A stretch of DNA of 64,000 nt from Hyphomonas sp. (GTDB taxonomy: Bacteria > Pseudomonadota > Alphaproteobacteria > Caulobacterales > Hyphomonadaceae). Position numbers and translations under genes: made by a program. Each line of letters opens with the position of its first letter. Positions within the stretch are counted from its first letter, which is position 1. The DNA lies in contig VMTE01000051.1 of assembly GCA_013791775.1 (NCBI GenBank), forward strand, positions 1 through 64,000. Direction: 5' to 3'. Below the pieces are notes generated by a model. It saw only the letters and a list, made by a program, of their open reading frames with translations. It was not told where the DNA came from and did not search any database. Positions 4,479 to 31,139 of this stretch are shown one piece after another.

Positions 4479-5420
4479 TCACGGCCGGCGTTTTGCCGTC
4501 AGGCGTTTGCAGACTTCATCGAGCTGTTCGAGATCGCGGTACTTGATCCGGATCTCGCCCCCTTCCCGGCCGTGGCGGATATCGACCACGAGGCCCAGCT
4601 CGCGGCTGATGTCGGCTTCCAGCGCCTCGGTATCAACGTCCTTCTCGGGCGCCGGTTTCGGCGGCATGGACTTGGTTTCCAGCGGCACGCTCTCGCGCGA
4701 CTCGCGCGCCTTGGCTTCCAGTTCGCGCACGCTGAAGCCGCGTTCGATGGCCATCTGGATCAACGCTTCGGGGTCGGCGCCGCCTAGCGCGGCGCGCGCA
4801 TGGCCGGCGCTGATGCGCCCTTCGCGGACGTGGCGGCGGGCGGTTTCGGGCAGCTGCAGCAGGCGGAGCGTGTTCGAGATATGAACGCGGCTCTTGCCAA
4901 CGCTGGCGGCGAGGCTGTCCTGCGTCCGGCCGAACCGTTTGATCAGCGCGTCGTAGGCCTCGGCCTCGTCGATGGCATTCAGGTCGGCGCGCTGGACGTT
5001 CTCGATGATGCCGATTTCGAGCAGGGCGAGTTCGTCAACATCCTTGACCACGGCCGGAATGGAGGTGAGGCCCGCCATGCGCGCCGCGCGCCACCGGCGC
5101 TCTCCGGCGATGATCTGGTACTTGCCGGCCTCTTTCGGATCCGGCCGCACGAGGATGGCCTGGAGGACGCCCTTGGTCTTCAGCGACTCGGCGAGTTCGC
5201 GCAGTTCGGCGTCGTCAAAGCTGCGGCGCGGCTGCGCCGGGTTGCGCCGGATATGATCGATATTGATCTCGTTCGGACGCTCGGTCGGCGGTAAGTCCGG
5301 TGTGGGTCCTGCCGCTGGCGGACGGGTCGTGCCCATCGCTTCCACTTCGCCGATCAGCGCCGAGAGGCCGCGTCCCAGCCGCGAGACTTTGCGGCCATCA
5401 TCTTGGGGATCGCCGCTCAT
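4479..5420 (-). CDS. parB: Chromosome-partitioning protein ParB
   Basis: CTP-dependent DNA clamp that loads at parS sites and spreads to build the origin-proximal segregation complex. Visible parts are the GERRWR box at residues 106-111 and ENVQR at 140-144 (the CTP-binding and arginine-patch motifs), a helix-turn-helix around KSRVHISNTLRLLQL, and a C-terminal dimerisation domain. The 313-residue length is typical. The start overlaps the parA stop by 4 bases (ATGA), so parA and parB are translationally coupled. Two perfect parS sites lie 1.4-1.9 kb from the parB start. Confidence 0.98.
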   Translation of the reverse strand: MSGDPQDDGRKVSRLGRGLSALIGEVEAMGTTRPPAAGPTPDLPPTERPNEINIDHIRRNPAQPRRSFDDAELRELAESLKTKGVLQAILVRPDPKEAGKYQIIAGERRWRAARMAGLTSIPAVVKDVDELALLEIGIIENVQRADLNAIDEAEAYDALIKRFGRTQDSLAASVGKSRVHISNTLRLLQLPETARRHVREGRISAGHARAALGGADPEALIQMAIERGFSVRELEAKARESRESVPLETKSMPPKPAPEKDVDTEALEADISRELGLVVDIRHGREGGEIRIKYRDLEQLDEVCKRLTAKRRP

Positions 5421-6223
5421 GCTACCCGCGCCTTCTCGCGCTGAAGAACCTCCGATGCGAGACGGATATACGCCTCACTGCCCGGGCAACGGTAATCATA
5501 GAGAAGGGCTGGCTTGCCGAAAGACGGCGCTTCCGACAGGCGGACGTTGCGCGGGATGACGGTGTTGTAGACCTTGCTGCCGAAGAAGGCGCGGACCTCG
5601 TTGGCCACCTGATCGGACAGCGAGTTGCGCCGGTCATACATCGTCAGCACCACGCCCTGGATTTCGAGGGTCGGGTTGAGACCGGAGCGGACGACCTCGA
5701 CGGTGCGCAGAAGCTGCGACAGACCTTCGAGCGCCAGGAACTCGCACTGCAGCGGAACCAGCAACGCATCCGACGCGGTCATCGCGTTCATGGTCAAAGC
5801 CGACAGCGACGGCGGGCAGTCGATCAGCACATAATCATACTTAACGAGGTCGCCGGTTTCGGCGCGCGCGATATAGGTCTGAAGCGCTTCCTTGAGACGG
5901 TAGGAACGGTGGGTGTCGCCCGCGAGTTCGGTTTCCACCCCGGACAGGTTCTCGTCTCCGGGGATGATGTCGAGGCGCGGCACGATGGTGGAGAGCACCG
6001 CCTCCTCGAGCGGAATCCGGTCCACGACCAGATCGTAGGAGGTGCGCAGCCGTTCGGCGCGCGAGATTCCGAGTCCGGTCGATGCGTTGCCCTGGGCATC
6101 GAAATCGACGATCAGGACGCGCCGGCCGACGGCGGCGAGCGCGGTGCCCAGATTGATGGAGGTCGTCGTTTTACCGACACCGCCCTTCTGGTTCACAACG
6201 GCAAATATTCTAGGCCTGGCCAT
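5417..6223 (-). CDS. parA: Chromosome-partitioning ATPase ParA
   Basis: Deviant Walker-type ATPase that drives movement of ParB-parS complexes. The Walker A motif KGGVGKTT is at residues 13-20, followed by DFDAQGNASTGLG and DCPPSLSALTMNAM. I chose the ATG at 6223, giving MARPRIFAVVNQKGG and 268 residues, with a GGGAGG about 12 bases upstream. The frame stays open to a TTG at 6247, which would add eight unremarkable residues. The start lies inside the 3' end of rsmG, so rsmG, parA and parB are probably co-transcribed. Confidence 0.97.
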   Translation of the reverse strand: MARPRIFAVVNQKGGVGKTTTSINLGTALAAVGRRVLIVDFDAQGNASTGLGISRAERLRTSYDLVVDRIPLEEAVLSTIVPRLDIIPGDENLSGVETELAGDTHRSYRLKEALQTYIARAETGDLVKYDYVLIDCPPSLSALTMNAMTASDALLVPLQCEFLALEGLSQLLRTVEVVRSGLNPTLEIQGVVLTMYDRRNSLSDQVANEVRAFFGSKVYNTVIPRNVRLSEAPSFGKPALLYDYRCPGSEAYIRLASEVLQREKARVA

Positions 6224-6839
6224 GGCGTCTCGCAGCCTCCCGCACAATCAAGATTACCCCGGACCCACCACTGCGACTTGGAATCGCTTGATACGCGAAA
6301 TTCCACCTTTGCCGGGCTGCCGTCAATTCATCTTTCCAGCGTTCGCCTTTCGGGAAAACCCCTGTTGCACCTTTGCACAGCCAGGGCGCAGCATAATCGA
6401 GCAATTCCGGAAGCGGCGCGAAGGCCCGTGCGGTGACATATTCGGCCTGGATCGGCGGCGCCGCCTCGACCCGGCCTTGGTGGACCGTGGCCGGAAGGCC
6501 CGCTGCCTCGATCGCCGCGCGAAGGAACGCGCACTTCTTCCCGACACTTTCGATCAGGGTGACGTGTCCGGCAGGACGGGCTGCGGCGATGATCAATCCC
6601 GGAAAGCCGGCGCCCGAGCCCAGGTCCACGACCCGGGCCGTGTCCGGAATCCGGTCAAGCAGCTGCACCGAATCGCCGACATGCCGGGTCCAGATCTGCG
6701 GCCATTCGTTCGGCCCGATCAGATTACTGCGTGTGCGCCAGTCGTCGAGCGTCGCAATGATGATATCAAGGCGCGCCAATGTTTCACGTGAAACATCGTG
6801 GGCGGCGAGAAACGCCGCGCGATCATTTGAGTCTGTCAT
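6210..6839 (-). CDS. rsmG: 16S rRNA (guanine527-N7)-methyltransferase RsmG (GidB)
   Basis: SAM-dependent enzyme that methylates G527 of 16S rRNA. The SAM-binding loop reads VVDLGSGAGFPGL, and the 209-residue length is normal. The N-terminal DVSRET segment at residues 15-20 is encoded by a perfect parS site, so DNA partition signal and protein sequence coincide. It lies 3 bases downstream of mnmG and overlaps parA, forming the usual mnmG-rsmG-parA-parB series. Confidence 0.97.
   Translation of the reverse strand: MTDSNDRAAFLAAHDVSRETLARLDIIIATLDDWRTRSNLIGPNEWPQIWTRHVGDSVQLLDRIPDTARVVDLGSGAGFPGLIIAAARPAGHVTLIESVGKKCAFLRAAIEAAGLPATVHQGRVEAAPPIQAEYVTARAFAPLPELLDYAAPWLCKGATGVFPKGERWKDELTAARQRWNFAYQAIPSRSGGSGVILIVREAARRHGQA
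6780..6795. promoter_or_regulatory. parS: parS centromere-like site in rsmG
   Basis: Sixteen bases read TGTTTCACGTGAAACA, a perfect palindrome and an exact match to the bacterial parS consensus bound by ParB. It sits near the 5' end of rsmG, about 7.5 kb from the predicted origin, and is one of two perfect copies in the window. Confidence 0.95.
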
Positions 6840-6842
6840 TTT

Positions 6843-8708
6843 CTATCCCGTCCGGCGGACGCGTTTCACGTGGCCAAGCAAGGCCGTCAAGGCCCCCGGG
6901 GTCACCCCTTCGATCCGGGCGGCCTGGCCGAGCGTGACCGGACGCACCGCCTTGAGCTTCTGCCGGACCTCGTTCGACAGTCCGCCAATGGCGTCATAGT
7001 CGAGGCCGTCCGGAAGCGTCAGGGACTCGTCCCGGCGAAGCGCGGCGACGTCTTCGGACTGCCGGTCGAGATACGCCGCATACAGCGCCTCGATTTCGAT
7101 CTGGGCGCCGATCCCGTCCGGGATCGCTTCAAGCTCCGGCCAGATGGCGCGAAGATGCGCGAGCGTGATGTCCTTGTAGGAGAGGTATTCCCAGGCCGAC
7201 CGGACCCGGCCATCCTGGTTGACGGCCCAACCCGCCTTCACGGCCGCAGCCGGGGACAAGGTCAAAGCCCTGAGCATGGTCCGGGCGTCCTCGAGCGCGC
7301 GATGTTTCACGTGAAACATTCCAGCGCGCCCCGAGCCGACAACCCCGGCCTCGATCCCGCGCGGGGTCAGCCGCTGGTCGGCATTGTCCGCGCGAAGGGC
7401 AAGGCGGTATTCGGCGCGGGACGTAAACATCCGATAGGGCTCGGTCACGCCGCGTGTGACGAGGTCGTCGATCAGAACCCCGATATAGGCTTCGGCGCGG
7501 TCAAAGATCACGGGTTCCTTGCCGGCGGCCGCGCGCGCCGCATTGAGGCCGGCCATCAGGCCCTGGGCGCCGGCCTCTTCATATCCCGTCGTGCCGTTGA
7601 TCTGCCCGGCCAGATAGAGGCCCGAAAGCGCCTTCACCTCGAGCGCAGGCGACAGGGCACGCGGGTCCACATAATCATACTCGATGGCATAAGCGTGCTG
7701 GAGGATGGCGACATCCTCGAGGCCGGGAATGGTCCGGATGAACTGGTCCTGAATCTCCTCCGGAAGCGAGGTGGAGATGCCATTCGGATAGACGGTGTGA
7801 TCGTCCAGCCCTTCCGGTTCGAGGAAGATCTGGTGCCGGTCCCGGTCAGCGAAGCGGTGGACCTTGTCCTCGATGGAGGGACAGTAACGCGGACCGCGTC
7901 CGGCAATCGCGCCCGAGTAAACGGCCGACTGGTTGATGTTCTCGTCAATGATCCTGTGGGTCTCGGGCGTTGTCCAGGTGATGCCGCACGCAACCTGGCG
8001 CACGTCGATCTGCGCATTCAGGAAGCTGAACGGGATGGGCTGGTCATCGGCCGCTTGCATCTCCAGCCGGTCCCAATGGATCGTCCGGCCGTCGAGGCGG
8101 GCGGGGGTTCCGGTCTTGAGGCGGCCCATCGGCAGACCGAGGGCATACAGCCGGTCCGACAATCCGATGGCGGGGGCTTCGCCGACCCGGCCGGCCGGGA
8201 TGCGCTTCGCGCCGATATGAATGACGCCTTTGAGGAATGTGCCGGTGGTGATGACGACCTTGGCGGCGCGGTACACCGTTCCGGTGAGACCGGTGATGCC
8301 GGCGACCCTGCCATCGTCCACGATCAGGTCTTCGGCGCCGTCTTCGAGGATCGTCAGGTTGGGATAATCCGAGAGCTCGGCCTGCATCGCTTCGCGGTAA
8401 AGCTTCCGGTCGATCTGGGCGCGGGGGCCCCAGACGGCTGGACCCTTGGACCGGTTGAGCATCCGGAACTGGATGCCGGCCTTGTCGGCCATGCGGCCCA
8501 TGACCCCGTCCAGCGCATCAATCTCACGGACGAGGTGGCCCTTGCCGAGACCGCCGATGGCGGGGTTGCAACTCATCTCGCCGATGGTCGTGCGCTTGTG
8601 GGTGACCAGCGCCGTGCGCGCGCCGAAACGGGCGGCCGCGGCTGCGGCTTCGCAACCGGCATGGCCGCCGCCAATCACGATCACATCAAAGTCGGCCGGG
8701 TCCGGCAT
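6843..8708 (-). CDS. mnmG: tRNA uridine-5-carboxymethylaminomethyl modification enzyme MnmG (GidA)
   Basis: FAD- and folate-dependent subunit of the MnmE-MnmG complex that modifies the wobble uridine in tRNAs. The N-terminal FAD motif is [12 protein letters not shown] near residues 10-21, followed by [22 protein letters not shown]. The 621-residue length matches the family. A second parS site is inside the gene, where it encodes MFHVKH near residue 464. The start codon overlaps a TTAA-N7-TTAA motif. mnmE lies 65 bases upstream and rsmG 3 bases downstream on the same strand. Confidence 0.98.
7303..7318. promoter_or_regulatory. parS: parS centromere-like site in mnmG
   Basis: A second exact 16-base parS palindrome, identical to the copy at 6780 and 523 bases from it. 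It lies inside the mnmG coding region. Two close perfect sites near parAB and the predicted origin are what a chromosomal ParB loading zone looks like. Confidence 0.95.
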
Positions 8709-8722
8709 TAACCATCTCTTAA
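8708..8722. promoter_or_regulatory. CtrA-box-like motif at the mnmG start
   Basis: The bases read TTAA, then CCATCTC, then TTAA: an exact TTAA-N7-TTAA CtrA full-site pattern. It covers the first base of the mnmG start codon and the bases just upstream, in the mnmE-mnmG gap. By eye only one other perfect copy exists in the window, at the predicted origin. A site here could block mnmG translation signals or transcription, but function is inferred only from the motif. Confidence 0.5.
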
Positions 8723-13084: not shown

Positions 13085-14122
13085 TTATCCTTTTCGAACC
13101 CGGTCGAGGACGCGCTCGACATGCGCGATCGGCGTTTCGGGCCTGACCCCGTGACCGAGATTGAAGATATGGGGCCGGTGCCGGTAGGCGTCCAGAAGTT
13201 GATCCACCCGTGCGTCAAGACGCCGGCCGCCTTCGATCAGCAGAAGCGGATCCAGGTGGCCCTGGACCGGGAAATTCGCAGGCAGTTCGCGGTTGATGAA
13301 TTTCGGGGATGCGGCCGTATCGAGGCCCACGGCGGTCACACCGGTGGCTGCCACATAGTCCGGCACCATGACGCCGGCGCCGCGCGGAAATCCGATGATC
13401 GGTACGGTGACCCCCAGGCTGCGCAAACGGTCCACCAGCTTCCGGGTCGGGGCGATGATCACTTCCTCGAAAATATTGTCGGGCAGGCCTTCGGCCCAGC
13501 TGTCGAACAGCATCAGGGCGTCGGCCCCGGCTTCGACCTGGCGGGCAAGGTAATGGGCTGTGGCTTCCCCGACGAGGTCCATTGCTTCGGCGAGTTCGTC
13601 CGGCCGGCCGTGCGCCCAACGCAAGGCCGCCGACTTGTCCGTCTTCCCTCGCCCCTCGACGGCATACAGCGTCACCGTCCACGGCGAGCCGGCGAACCCC
13701 ATCAGGGTAGTTTCAGGCGGCAAGGCAGATTTCACCCGCGCCACGGTTTCATAGACCGGCGACAATTTGTCAGCTGCGGCTTCCGGCTTGATCCGTCTGA
13801 GATCCGCCGGCGCGGAGATTTCCTCCACCAGCGGGCCTTCACCTTTCTCGAACCGGACGCCTAGCCCCATCGCATCGAGGATCAGCAGAATGTCGGCGAA
13901 CAGGATCGCCGCATCCATCCCGTACCGGCGTACCGGCTGCAGTGTGGCTTCCGCAGCGAGGGACGGCGTGTAGCAGAAATCCAGAAAGTCGCGCGCCTGC
14001 GCCCGGGTTTCGAGATATTCCGGCAGGTGCCGGCCGGCTTGCCGCATCATCCAGACCGGAGGTGTTGCCTCGACCTGACCCGCCAGCACGTTCAGTATTT
14101 TTTTCCTGCCGGTTGCCGCCAT
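13085..14122 (-). CDS. hemE: Uroporphyrinogen decarboxylase
   Basis: Decarboxylates uroporphyrinogen III to coproporphyrinogen III. The signature PPVWMMRQAGRHLPEY near residues 18-33 holds the substrate-binding arginines, and GFAGSPWTV follows. The 345-residue length is normal. It is the first gene left of the predicted origin and is transcribed away from it. In Caulobacter hemE also borders the origin, and CtrA represses its promoter there; a perfect CtrA box lies 174 bases upstream of this start. Confidence 0.98.
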   Translation of the reverse strand: MAATGRKKILNVLAGQVEATPPVWMMRQAGRHLPEYLETRAQARDFLDFCYTPSLAAEATLQPVRRYGMDAAILFADILLILDAMGLGVRFEKGEGPLVEEISAPADLRRIKPEAAADKLSPVYETVARVKSALPPETTLMGFAGSPWTVTLYAVEGRGKTDKSAALRWAHGRPDELAEAMDLVGEATAHYLARQVEAGADALMLFDSWAEGLPDNIFEEVIIAPTRKLVDRLRSLGVTVPIIGFPRGAGVMVPDYVAATGVTAVGLDTAASPKFINRELPANFPVQGHLDPLLLIEGGRRLDARVDQLLDAYRHRPHIFNLGHGVRPETPIAHVERVLDRVRKG

Positions 14123-14230
14123 GCCCAGACCCCTTTTCAGTCCAATTCAAACCAGCCCGTCAGGGCGCTTATCATTATGATGCTGCGAATTGCTGGGAGA
14201 ACGCAGTTTCAACGGCTTTGTCCACCAAAA

Positions 14231-14247
14231 TCCACAAGCGAGTCACA
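14231..14247 (+). repeat. Composite origin repeat, copy 1
   Basis: TCCACAAGCGAGTCACA joins the 3' core of a DnaA-type box (TCCACA) to a GANTC methylation site four bases later. It is repeated with one mismatch exactly 180 bases downstream. Confidence 0.7.
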
Positions 14248-14424
14248 GTCTCCACTCGCCTGCCGGGCGAGAAGATTCTTCACGACTCTCAGAGATTAAC
14301 GGGGGGTTAACAGCCCCCTTGGAATCACAGCGCGGAACAAGACGCGATCATCGGGAGTCGATTCCGCCCAACTGTGGAAAGCATGTGAGTCCCTGTGCAG
14401 TCGGGGGCTTTCCACAGGCGAGTC
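14240..14424. other. Cluster of eight GANTC (CcrM) sites
   Basis: GANTC occurs at 14240, 14274, 14284, 14322, 14355, 14360, 14387 and 14420, eight times in 185 bases, against fewer than one expected by chance. Four belong to a longer GANTCACA octamer (14240, 14322 and 14420 on the plus strand; 14384-14391 on the minus strand). GANTC is the target of the cell-cycle methylase CcrM in Caulobacter-type bacteria. Confidence 0.85.
14296..14310. promoter_or_regulatory. CtrA box in the predicted origin
   Basis: TTAA-CGGGGGG-TTAA is an exact TTAA-N7-TTAA full site for the response regulator CtrA. In Caulobacter CtrA binds such sites in the origin, blocks initiation in swarmer cells and represses hemE. 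Location and match together make this the best-supported CtrA site in the window. Confidence 0.8.
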
Positions 14425-14427
14425 ACA
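14411..14427 (+). repeat. Composite origin repeat, copy 2
   Basis: TCCACAGGCGAGTCACA matches copy 1 at 14231 in 16 of 17 bases, in direct orientation. Its 5' part is the DnaA-like CTTTCCACA at 14408-14416, so the box and the GANTC site are fused as in copy 1. Confidence 0.7.
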
Positions 14428-14467
14428 ACCCTTGTGCAAATCGAGAAGCCCCGGCAAGAGAAACGCC

Positions 14468-15310
14468 ATGACCCGGCCGATGCGACCCGCCATCTATTTC
14501 AACGTCCACCTCGTCTCCGACTCGACGGGGGAAACGCTGAACGCTGTGCAGCGCGCAGCCTGTGCCCAGTTCGAAAATATCCAGCCGCTGGAGCATAATT
14601 ACTACCTGGTGCGCTCCGAGCGCCAGCTCGAACGCGTCACGCGCGAAATCGAGGCCGCGCCCGGCGTCGTCTGGTACACGATCTCGGACAGCGCCTTGCG
14701 CGCGCGGCTGGAAGCCTTCTGCCGTGAACGGAGCATTCCGACTCTGCCGGTGCTCGATCCGTCGATCGCCATGCTCAGCCGCCATCTTGGCGTCTCGGCC
14801 AACAACCGCGTCGCCGGCCAGCACGCCATGGACGAGGACTACTTCGAGCGGATGGAAGCCATCAACTTCACACTGGCCCATGATGACGGCCAGAATGTCG
14901 ACAGTCTGATCGGCGCCGATGTCATCCTGCTGGGGGTCAGCCGGACGTCGAAGACACCGACGTGTGTGTACCTCGCCAACCGCAAGGTCCGCGCCGGCAA
15001 CATTCCGCTGGTGCCCGGCGTGGCGCTGCCGGATTTCCTCGAAGCGATGGGCGACAAGGGACCGCTCGTCGTCGGGCTCAAGATCTCGGCCGAGCGCCTC
15101 GTGCAGATCCGCCGGCAGCGGCTCATCTCGCTCAACCAGGAAGATGCCGGCGACTATGCGGACGAAGAAGCTGTGCGCGATGAAATCACCCAGGCGAACC
15201 GCCTGTTCCAGCGCAACCAGTGGAAGACCATTGATGTCTCCCGCCGGTCTGTCGAGGAAACCGCCGCCGGTATCCTCAACCTGCTGATCGAACGCCGGGG
15301 CTTCGCGTGA
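14468..15310 (+). CDS. ppsR: Pyruvate, phosphate dikinase / PEP synthase regulatory protein (DUF299)
   Basis: Bifunctional kinase and pyrophosphorylase of the DUF299 family that switches PEP-forming dikinases off and on by threonine phosphorylation. The N-terminus FNVHLVSDSTGETLNAV and the P-loop-like GVSRTSKT at residues 156-163 are diagnostic. I chose the ATG at 14468 (280 residues); an in-frame GTG at 14432 would place extra residues inside origin sequence and lacks family support. It is the first gene right of the origin, as in Caulobacter, and overlaps maf by four bases. Confidence 0.95.
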   Translation: MTRPMRPAIYFNVHLVSDSTGETLNAVQRAACAQFENIQPLEHNYYLVRSERQLERVTREIEAAPGVVWYTISDSALRARLEAFCRERSIPTLPVLDPSIAMLSRHLGVSANNRVAGQHAMDEDYFERMEAINFTLAHDDGQNVDSLIGADVILLGVSRTSKTPTCVYLANRKVRAGNIPLVPGVALPDFLEAMGDKGPLVVGLKISAERLVQIRRQRLISLNQEDAGDYADEEAVRDEITQANRLFQRNQWKTIDVSRRSVEETAAGILNLLIERRGFA

Positions 15311-31104: not shown

Positions 31105-31139
31105 AACGCAAAAACCGTCCACACGCGTGTGGACGGTTT
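31105..31139 (-). terminator. Strong intrinsic terminator for the methyltransferase gene
   Basis: Bases 31112-31139 are a perfect 28-base palindrome with arms AAACCGTCCACACG. On the minus strand it is followed by TTTTTGCGTTTT, making a classic hairpin plus T-tract 30 bases after the stop of the leftward gene. Confidence 0.85.

Follow-up and report, generated by a model that had tools for sequence, protein, structure and literature searches.

Putative DnaA boxes fused with CcrM methylation sites form a genus-wide array at the likely chromosome origin of Hyphomonas

The gap between hemE and ppsR in this Hyphomonas (14123..14467), almost certainly its chromosome origin, holds four copies of GANTCACA, in which a CcrM methylation site (GANTC) is joined to the CACA half of a DnaA box; it is referred to below as the composite box. 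Very probably the array of composite, methylatable boxes is a selected feature. It, and not the position of the origin, is what is new here; the origin itself is known biology, its type being established and the origin of a congener already mapped. The reading that fits best, to which we give a probability of roughly 0.6, is one of tandem weak DnaA boxes, one per pair methylatable by CcrM, which would tie assembly of DnaA to methylation state. Among the matches listed from the open-access literature (titles and the starts of abstracts) there is no description of an alphaproteobacterial main chromosome whose origin has DnaA boxes that overlap GANTC. The window referred to throughout is the whole stretch of DNA analysed, namely the opening 64 kb of the 96-kb contig C28, part of a draft genome of 3.93 Mb and 51 contigs.

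The gap is 345 bp long and is bounded by hemE, for uroporphyrinogen decarboxylase (13085..14122, minus strand; TIGR01464, 356 bits against a cut-off of 303), and ppsR, for a DUF299/COG1806 regulator (14468..15310, plus strand; NF003742, 314 bits against a cut-off of 225), i.e. it has the location of a Caulobacter-type origin, between divergent hemE and COG1806/ppsR. The genes parB, parA, rsmG, mnmG, mnmE, rho, hemJ, hemH and hemE are leftward, and ppsR, maf, aroE, coaE and dnaQ rightward; for rsmG, mnmG, mnmE and aroE these are presumed names, given from the translations. Ten of the flanking genes were checked against NCBIfam, with hemJ and maf under the cut-off and the match for parA generic only. 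The parB gene (4479..5420, minus strand; TIGR00180, 183 bits against a cut-off of 58) adjoins that for a parA-family partition ATPase (5417..6247, minus strand), whose ParA/MinD-family matches include, among the 25 matches listed, none over its own cut-off. A sequence-only reading had earlier proposed a probable chromosome origin in this gap, on the grounds of a Caulobacter-like gene order, with hemE on one side and the DUF299 gene on the other, and of transcription leftward from parB to hemE and rightward from ppsR to dnaQ. Its coordinates are exact, the edges of hemE and ppsR agreeing; both flanking genes score over their cut-offs, and the gene directions hold.

That this Caulobacter-type hemE/ppsR gap is oriC, as then proposed, is now supported by motif density (below), parS sites, the skew of relatives, conservation of the gap and published mapping in Hyphomonas neptunium. 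Exact matches to parS, TGTTTCACGTGAAACA, are at two positions only in the whole genome, 6780..6795 and 7303..7318 (both plus strand), 7-8 kb from the gap, giving the parABS system with nearby parS that is typical of Caulobacter-type origins. Since a draft in 51 contigs permits no full skew plot, full-chromosome GC skew was tested on relatives, with 20 stretches of 20 kb sampled from each of three single-contig Hyphomonas genomes (G022, G046 and G015) oriented by ppsR. To the left of the orthologous gap skew was negative in 8/10, 10/10 and 10/10 stretches respectively, and to the right positive in 8/10, 10/10 and 10/10, two of ten stretches on each side in G022 having the wrong sign. The anticipated sign switch at the gap is accordingly present in the three sampled relatives but not locally on the contig itself, where skew is reversed (+0.013 to the left, -0.018 to the right within the window and, over the 32 kb that remain to the contig end, +0.001 and +0.010); in G022, too, skew close to the gap (within 22 kb) is reversed. 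Across 59 aligned distinct sequences from Hyphomonas and relatives the gap has held its place, at about 338-374 bp (lengths span the edges of BLAST matches and so are approximate). For H. neptunium, replication has been mapped to hemE by marker frequency, with two exact parS sites upstream of a parAB operon, about 7 kb from hemE (PMC6650430), and CtrA binds beside the origin in ChIP (PMC7200025). An origin near dnaA was considered and rejected: dnaA is on another contig, C14, and the 1.8-kb stretch round its start, made up of about 1.2 kb of upstream DNA and 0.6 kb of dnaA itself, is without such a cluster, having one GANTC, two TCCACA, no GANTCACA and no full CtrA site.

Inside the gap, as in Caulobacter-type origins, is a full CtrA site, TTAACGGGGGGTTAA (14296..14310, plus strand), a perfect TTAA-N7-TTAA. 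Two such sites in the 64-kb window compare with 0.03 expected, and in 21/35 Hyphomonas sequences a full site aligns at this position, with 28/35 having one somewhere in the gap. The second full CtrA-type site of the window, TTAACCATCTCTTAA, is at 8708-8722, between mnmG and mnmE. The gap has eight GANTC, where the remaining window would predict 0.59. In the window as a whole GANTC is strongly depleted (117, where dinucleotide shuffles give 302 and a first-order Markov model 300), as is to be expected where CcrM sites are under selection. Of the GANTC sites that have no CACA, those at 14274, 14284 and 14360 are kept in seven, six and two of the 35 Hyphomonas sequences, and that at 14355-14359 is conserved in 30/35. 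There are three TCCACA cores in the gap against 0.15 expected, and another three-core cluster at 31118, so that clustering of TCCACA alone is not unique to the gap. AT content is 44.3% against 34.2% for the window, only 0.3% of 345-bp windows being equally AT-rich. No 9-mer of the gap is within one mismatch of the DnaA-box sequence TTATCCACA. In these respects, a CtrA box, a GANTC cluster, an AT-richer stretch and DnaA boxes that are all imperfect, the sequence-only reading has stood up well. Its DnaA-like sites at 14228, 14373, 14408 and 14433 are four of the nine nonamers ending in CACA, those at 14239, 14321, 14384, 14394 and 14419 having been missed, and its proposal of weak, regulated DnaA binding is plausible but incomplete, the key departure from consensus being fusion with CcrM sites.

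A conserved block, CCCGTCAGGGCGCTTATCATTAT (14156..14178, from the alignment), is a candidate unwinding and/or promoter element. The candidacy concerns its CTTATnATTAT part (14168-14178), which relatives share with Hyphomonas as a conserved element and with which the most AT-rich 40 bp of the gap begin; about 40 bp separate the AT block from the nearest box, and its likeness to a DnaA-trio is partial and judged by eye. Rfam gave no match at the gathering threshold in 13900-14700.

Six of the nine nonamers ending in CACA pair into three doublets, the two 9-mers of each separated by 2 bp: A at 14228/14239 (plus strand), B at 14373/14384 (minus strand) and C at 14408/14419 (plus strand), and that at 14321 is single. 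Each doublet in this gap has one TCCACA member and one GANTCACA member. Doublet A opens with AAATCCACA (14228..14236, plus strand), a DnaA-like box whose TCCACA columns are unchanged in 36 sequences, and continues with the composite box CGAGTCACA, GANTC plus CACA (14239..14247, plus strand; GANTCACA in 34/35 Hyphomonas and 1/24 others). Doublet B combines the DnaA-like box CTTTCCACA (14373..14381, minus strand), with CACA columns unchanged and a variable 5′ half, and the composite box GGACTCACA (14384..14392, minus strand; GANTCACA in 35/35 and 1/24). In doublet C a second CTTTCCACA comes first (14408..14416, plus strand; CACA columns unchanged) and a second CGAGTCACA follows (14419..14427, plus strand; GANTCACA in 29/35 and 0/24). 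A and C repeat each other directly over 17 nt, 16 of which are identical, at a distance of 180 bp. The single composite box is GGAATCACA (14321..14329, plus strand; GANTCACA in 34/35 and 0/24). The two further nonamers carry TGCACA: GACTGCACA (14394..14402, minus strand) is poorly conserved in the alignment and probably non-functional, while ATTTGCACA (14433..14441, minus strand) is a weak DnaA-like nonamer with a nearly invariant CACAA (TTGTG on the plus strand, columns with 0-1 changes). Pairs of CACA 11 bp apart number exactly three in all 35 distinct Hyphomonas gaps; the 24 gaps of related lineages have one in 21 cases, two in one, three in one and none in one. When the CACA words of the window were placed at random, three 11-bp pairs were reached in 1 of 20,000 trials. 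The sequence TGATCCACA, taken here as that of the Cori G-box, is absent from the 63 distinct gaps and also from 19 gaps of other families of the order, and from this second absence the letters used may be too strict. All that PMC4468827 gives of the letters is a T to G change.

The comparison draws on 79 loci, of which three are without ppsR (L001-L003) and two without hemE (L005, L043), leaving 74 gaps, 63 of them distinct; the alignment does not include L020, L044, L045 and L047. The Hyphomonas set of 35 consists of the sequences whose PpsR is at least 82% identical, and L040 (titled Hyphomonas sp. TMED17, PpsR 68% identical, no GANTCACA) was placed among the 24 others. Every one of the 35 distinct Hyphomonas gaps has three to five composite boxes. 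They are absent from 23 of the 24 related-lineage gaps, the exception, L064 (genus g9), having two. For the order, 20 of 47 genomes outside the family were taken, one of them without a hemE match, and 18 of the 19 readable gaps have none and one gap has one; with composite boxes mostly missing at this level, a genus-specific role is possible. GANTC flanks read ACA in 145 of 553 cases in Hyphomonas gaps against 7 of 2610 in an 832-kb background (two single-contig relatives plus contig C28). Genome-wide avoidance of the composite box was considered and discarded, the seven in 832 kb comparing with a Markov expectation of 8.9, i.e. it is not avoided beyond its sub-words. The genome itself has 82 copies, four of them in the gap, against 63 of the reversed control pattern. 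Its only other pair within 345 bp, C49:13977/14217, is inside a reading frame, P450-like by translation, and is unremarkable.

A longer pattern, CCACA-N3-GANTCACA, is present in 42/42 Hyphomonas genomes with 73 matches (27 genomes with two, 13 with one and two with three), the reversed control giving one match in the same genomes. The place of ppsR is known in 14 of the 42, and there all 25 matches fall upstream of the gene, at a distance of no more than about 260 bp; G112 and G113 each have one clear extra match. In the class, the pattern is present in 21 of 289 genomes, this one and G005 included, and these two alone have it twice at one locus. As a marker, the pattern locates the origin from sequence alone in a genus for which GC skew and DnaA boxes are reported as uninformative, GC skew and DnaA sites having given no clear result for H. 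neptunium (PMC6650430).

Selection was gauged on a tree from hemE and ppsR of 36 sequences (35 Hyphomonas and L064). The N columns of the four composite boxes changed 4, 5, 6 and 6 times. Mean changes were 0.75 for GA/TC columns and 0.08 for ACA columns against 3.71 for other columns of the gap. Eight of the 12 changes in GA/TC columns are at the 14420 box, whose GANT part changed 3, 3 and 2 times, and 6/35 Hyphomonas are without that GANT part and have kept CACA. With N drifting freely while GA-TC and CACA are mostly fixed, both the methylation site and CACA appear selected, the former in keeping with what CcrM recognises and the latter with a DnaA-type core. The core at 14373 is TCCACA in 14 of the 36 sequences, GANTCACA in 13, CCACA in seven and something else in two, with at least three changes on the tree, and at 14427, where 29/35 Hyphomonas have GANTCACA, CCACA ends in 24/24 related-lineage gaps. 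Exchange of (T)CCACA and GANTCACA at the same sites suggests that one protein accepts both.

As to the proteins, a full-length CcrM homologue with N6_N4_Mtase and RAMA domains is encoded, at 607 bits below the cut-off of 830 of the Caulobacter CcrM model, so that a cognate methyltransferase, as pertains to a methylation-gated origin, is present, albeit under a Caulobacter-specific cut-off. By sequence, GANTC stands inside the DnaA-like, putatively initiator, boxes. GcrA is also encoded. For SeqA, the sequestration protein of origins gated in the Dam/SeqA manner, the genome has no PF03925 match, the E. coli positive control having matched. There is one protein with both main DnaA domains, at 309 bits below the NCBIfam equivalog cut-off of 344, and its HTH retains the RDHTT motif. 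R399 of E. coli DnaA reads the minor groove. At the domain IV position taken to align with it, the residue is K in Hyphomonas, the dnaA of this genome (L001) included, and in genera g1, g4 and g9, and R in g3 and g5, with 5/59 loci lacking a match to the motif filter and not judged. Co-evolution of DnaA with GANTCACA is not supported, K being present also in g4, whose gaps are without GANTCACA.

Under the favoured reading, DnaA would assemble on three weak-box doublets, 14228-14247 (plus strand), 14373-14392 (minus strand) and 14408-14427 (plus strand), and on the lone box at 14321, with the lone box and one member per doublet, as GANTCACA, serving as weak DnaA box and CcrM methylation site at once. 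In G1, with the sites fully methylated, DnaA would fill the doublets cooperatively unless CtrA~P occupied 14296-14310. After firing the sites would be hemimethylated until CcrM returned late in the cycle, and hemimethylation would lower DnaA occupancy, directly or via another protein, such that the origin could not fire twice. Fusion of the boxes with GANTC suggests, at the level of sequence, such a built-in 'once per cycle' lock. The components of this proposal are of unequal strength. DnaA probably binds GANTCACA, whose departure from TTATCCACA at at least two positions means that affinity could be nil. That methylation state matters for DnaA there, and acts as a licence, is tentative, the odds being if anything slightly against it. 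It is doubtful that DnaA itself may read m6A in GANTCACA, with only a fully methylated origin building the initiation complex. If it did, CcrM would confer a direct once-per-cycle licence with neither SeqA nor another sequestration protein, a licence that would have arisen in a single genus and the relative nearest to it, through conversion of one box per 11-bp doublet. Counting against the proposal are the CcrM score under the Caulobacter-specific cut-off, the lack of a SeqA match, the DnaA residue K shared with g4, the GANTC at 14355, conserved without CACA, and the 14420 box with its GANT lost in 6/35 and CACA kept. C. crescentus without ccrM has a DNA-content profile like that of wild type, and CcrM was regarded by the authors as not required for control of initiation (PMC3973325). 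RepC of the GANTC-rich repABC origins binds in vitro regardless of methylation (PMC6090056).

Another protein that reads GANTC methylation, for instance GcrA or an unknown sequestration factor, might instead occupy GANTCACA and compete with DnaA on the adjoining TCCACA, the CACA half then belonging to its site. We consider this rather unlikely, even with GcrA encoded in the genome, with its binding reported to depend on adenine methylation (PMC3667746) and with the strong constraint on GANTC, given that TCCACA and GANTCACA exchange at 14373, that CCACA is at 14427 in 24/24 related-lineage gaps, that the 11-bp phase runs between CACA cores of both kinds and that GANTCACA is not notably frequent elsewhere (82 genome copies against 63 of the reversed control). 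Less probable still is a role for the GANTC sites in methylation-controlled promoters of hemE and ppsR (and in origin transcription) and not in an initiation complex. Divergent genes do need promoters, and in Caulobacter GANTC sites are in cell-cycle promoters (PMC4287350), but two promoters have no need of four CACA-bearing sites, spread along 190 bp and both strands, of which three keep a fixed 11-bp distance to another CACA core, and the one sigma-70-like match (14146-14175, plus strand, in a scan for the sigma-70 consensus only) contains none of the four. It is similarly improbable that the origin is an ordinary Caulobacter-type one with GANTCACA as a clade-specific sequence habit of no regulatory meaning, retained through slow evolution of the gap, for though shared ancestry inflates sequence counts and the whole gap is conserved, the same tree has 3.71 changes in outside columns and 4-6 in N columns against 0.75 in GA/TC and 0.08 in ACA.

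The array of putative weak, methylatable DnaA boxes has parallels in several known systems. Shared with Cori of Caulobacter crescentus are gene neighbourhood, CtrA control, low-affinity DnaA boxes, several GANTC and parS within 8 kb (PMC4468827, PMC1914354, PMC3973325), whereas Cori has five high-affinity CtrA sites where one full site is present here, and the fusion of DnaA-like boxes with GANTC is a further difference. The H. neptunium origin, from the same genus, is alike in replication at hemE, two exact parS about 7 kb off and adjoining CtrA (PMC6650430, PMC7200025); the available parts of both papers carry no account of box architecture or methylation, 'GANTC', 'CcrM' and 'methylation' not being among the words of the main text of PMC7200025. 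In E. coli oriC the low-affinity DnaA boxes R5, I2, I3, tau1 and tau2 overlap GATC (PMC4285127), and opposed arrays of weak boxes are common to both, but here the site is GANTC with a CcrM homologue and not Dam GATC, no SeqA was found, and CcrM, unlike E. coli Dam, acts late in the cycle. At oriII of Vibrio cholerae the methylation site is likewise part of the initiator sites (RctB 11/12-mers), which must be fully methylated for efficient binding of RctB (PMC2865523); that case involves RctB, GATC and a secondary chromosome, and the present one probably DnaA, with GANTC and the main chromosome. The repABC origins of secondary replicons in Alphaproteobacteria are also GANTC-rich, and CcrM affects firing of Agrobacterium ori2 (PMC11514494, PMC6090056), but they use RepC and not DnaA, and the effect of CcrM is proposed to be via repABC expression and GcrA. 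Whether CcrM acts on alphaproteobacterial chromosome origins is disputed (PMC2865523 versus PMC3973325), the Caulobacter origin being said to need methylation of both strands to fire, by a mechanism unknown (PMC2865523). In this regard Hyphomonas provides an origin with the methylation site inside probable initiator boxes, genus-wide and with H. neptunium already genetically studied.

Some entries in the survey are irregular. The locus L020, from a Hyphomonas MAG, has a 754-bp hemE-ppsR gap that holds four GANTCACA, and at G128:C18:3390-4001 two doublets are 596 bp apart, against about 181 bp as usual; insertion or misassembly, possibly in one and the same genome, may account for both. Four loci titled Acidobacteria or Sulfopaludibacter (L005, L007, L008 and L010) are nonetheless Hyphomonas-like at ppsR, with PpsR 93-95% identical, and are probably from mislabelled or contaminated MAGs.
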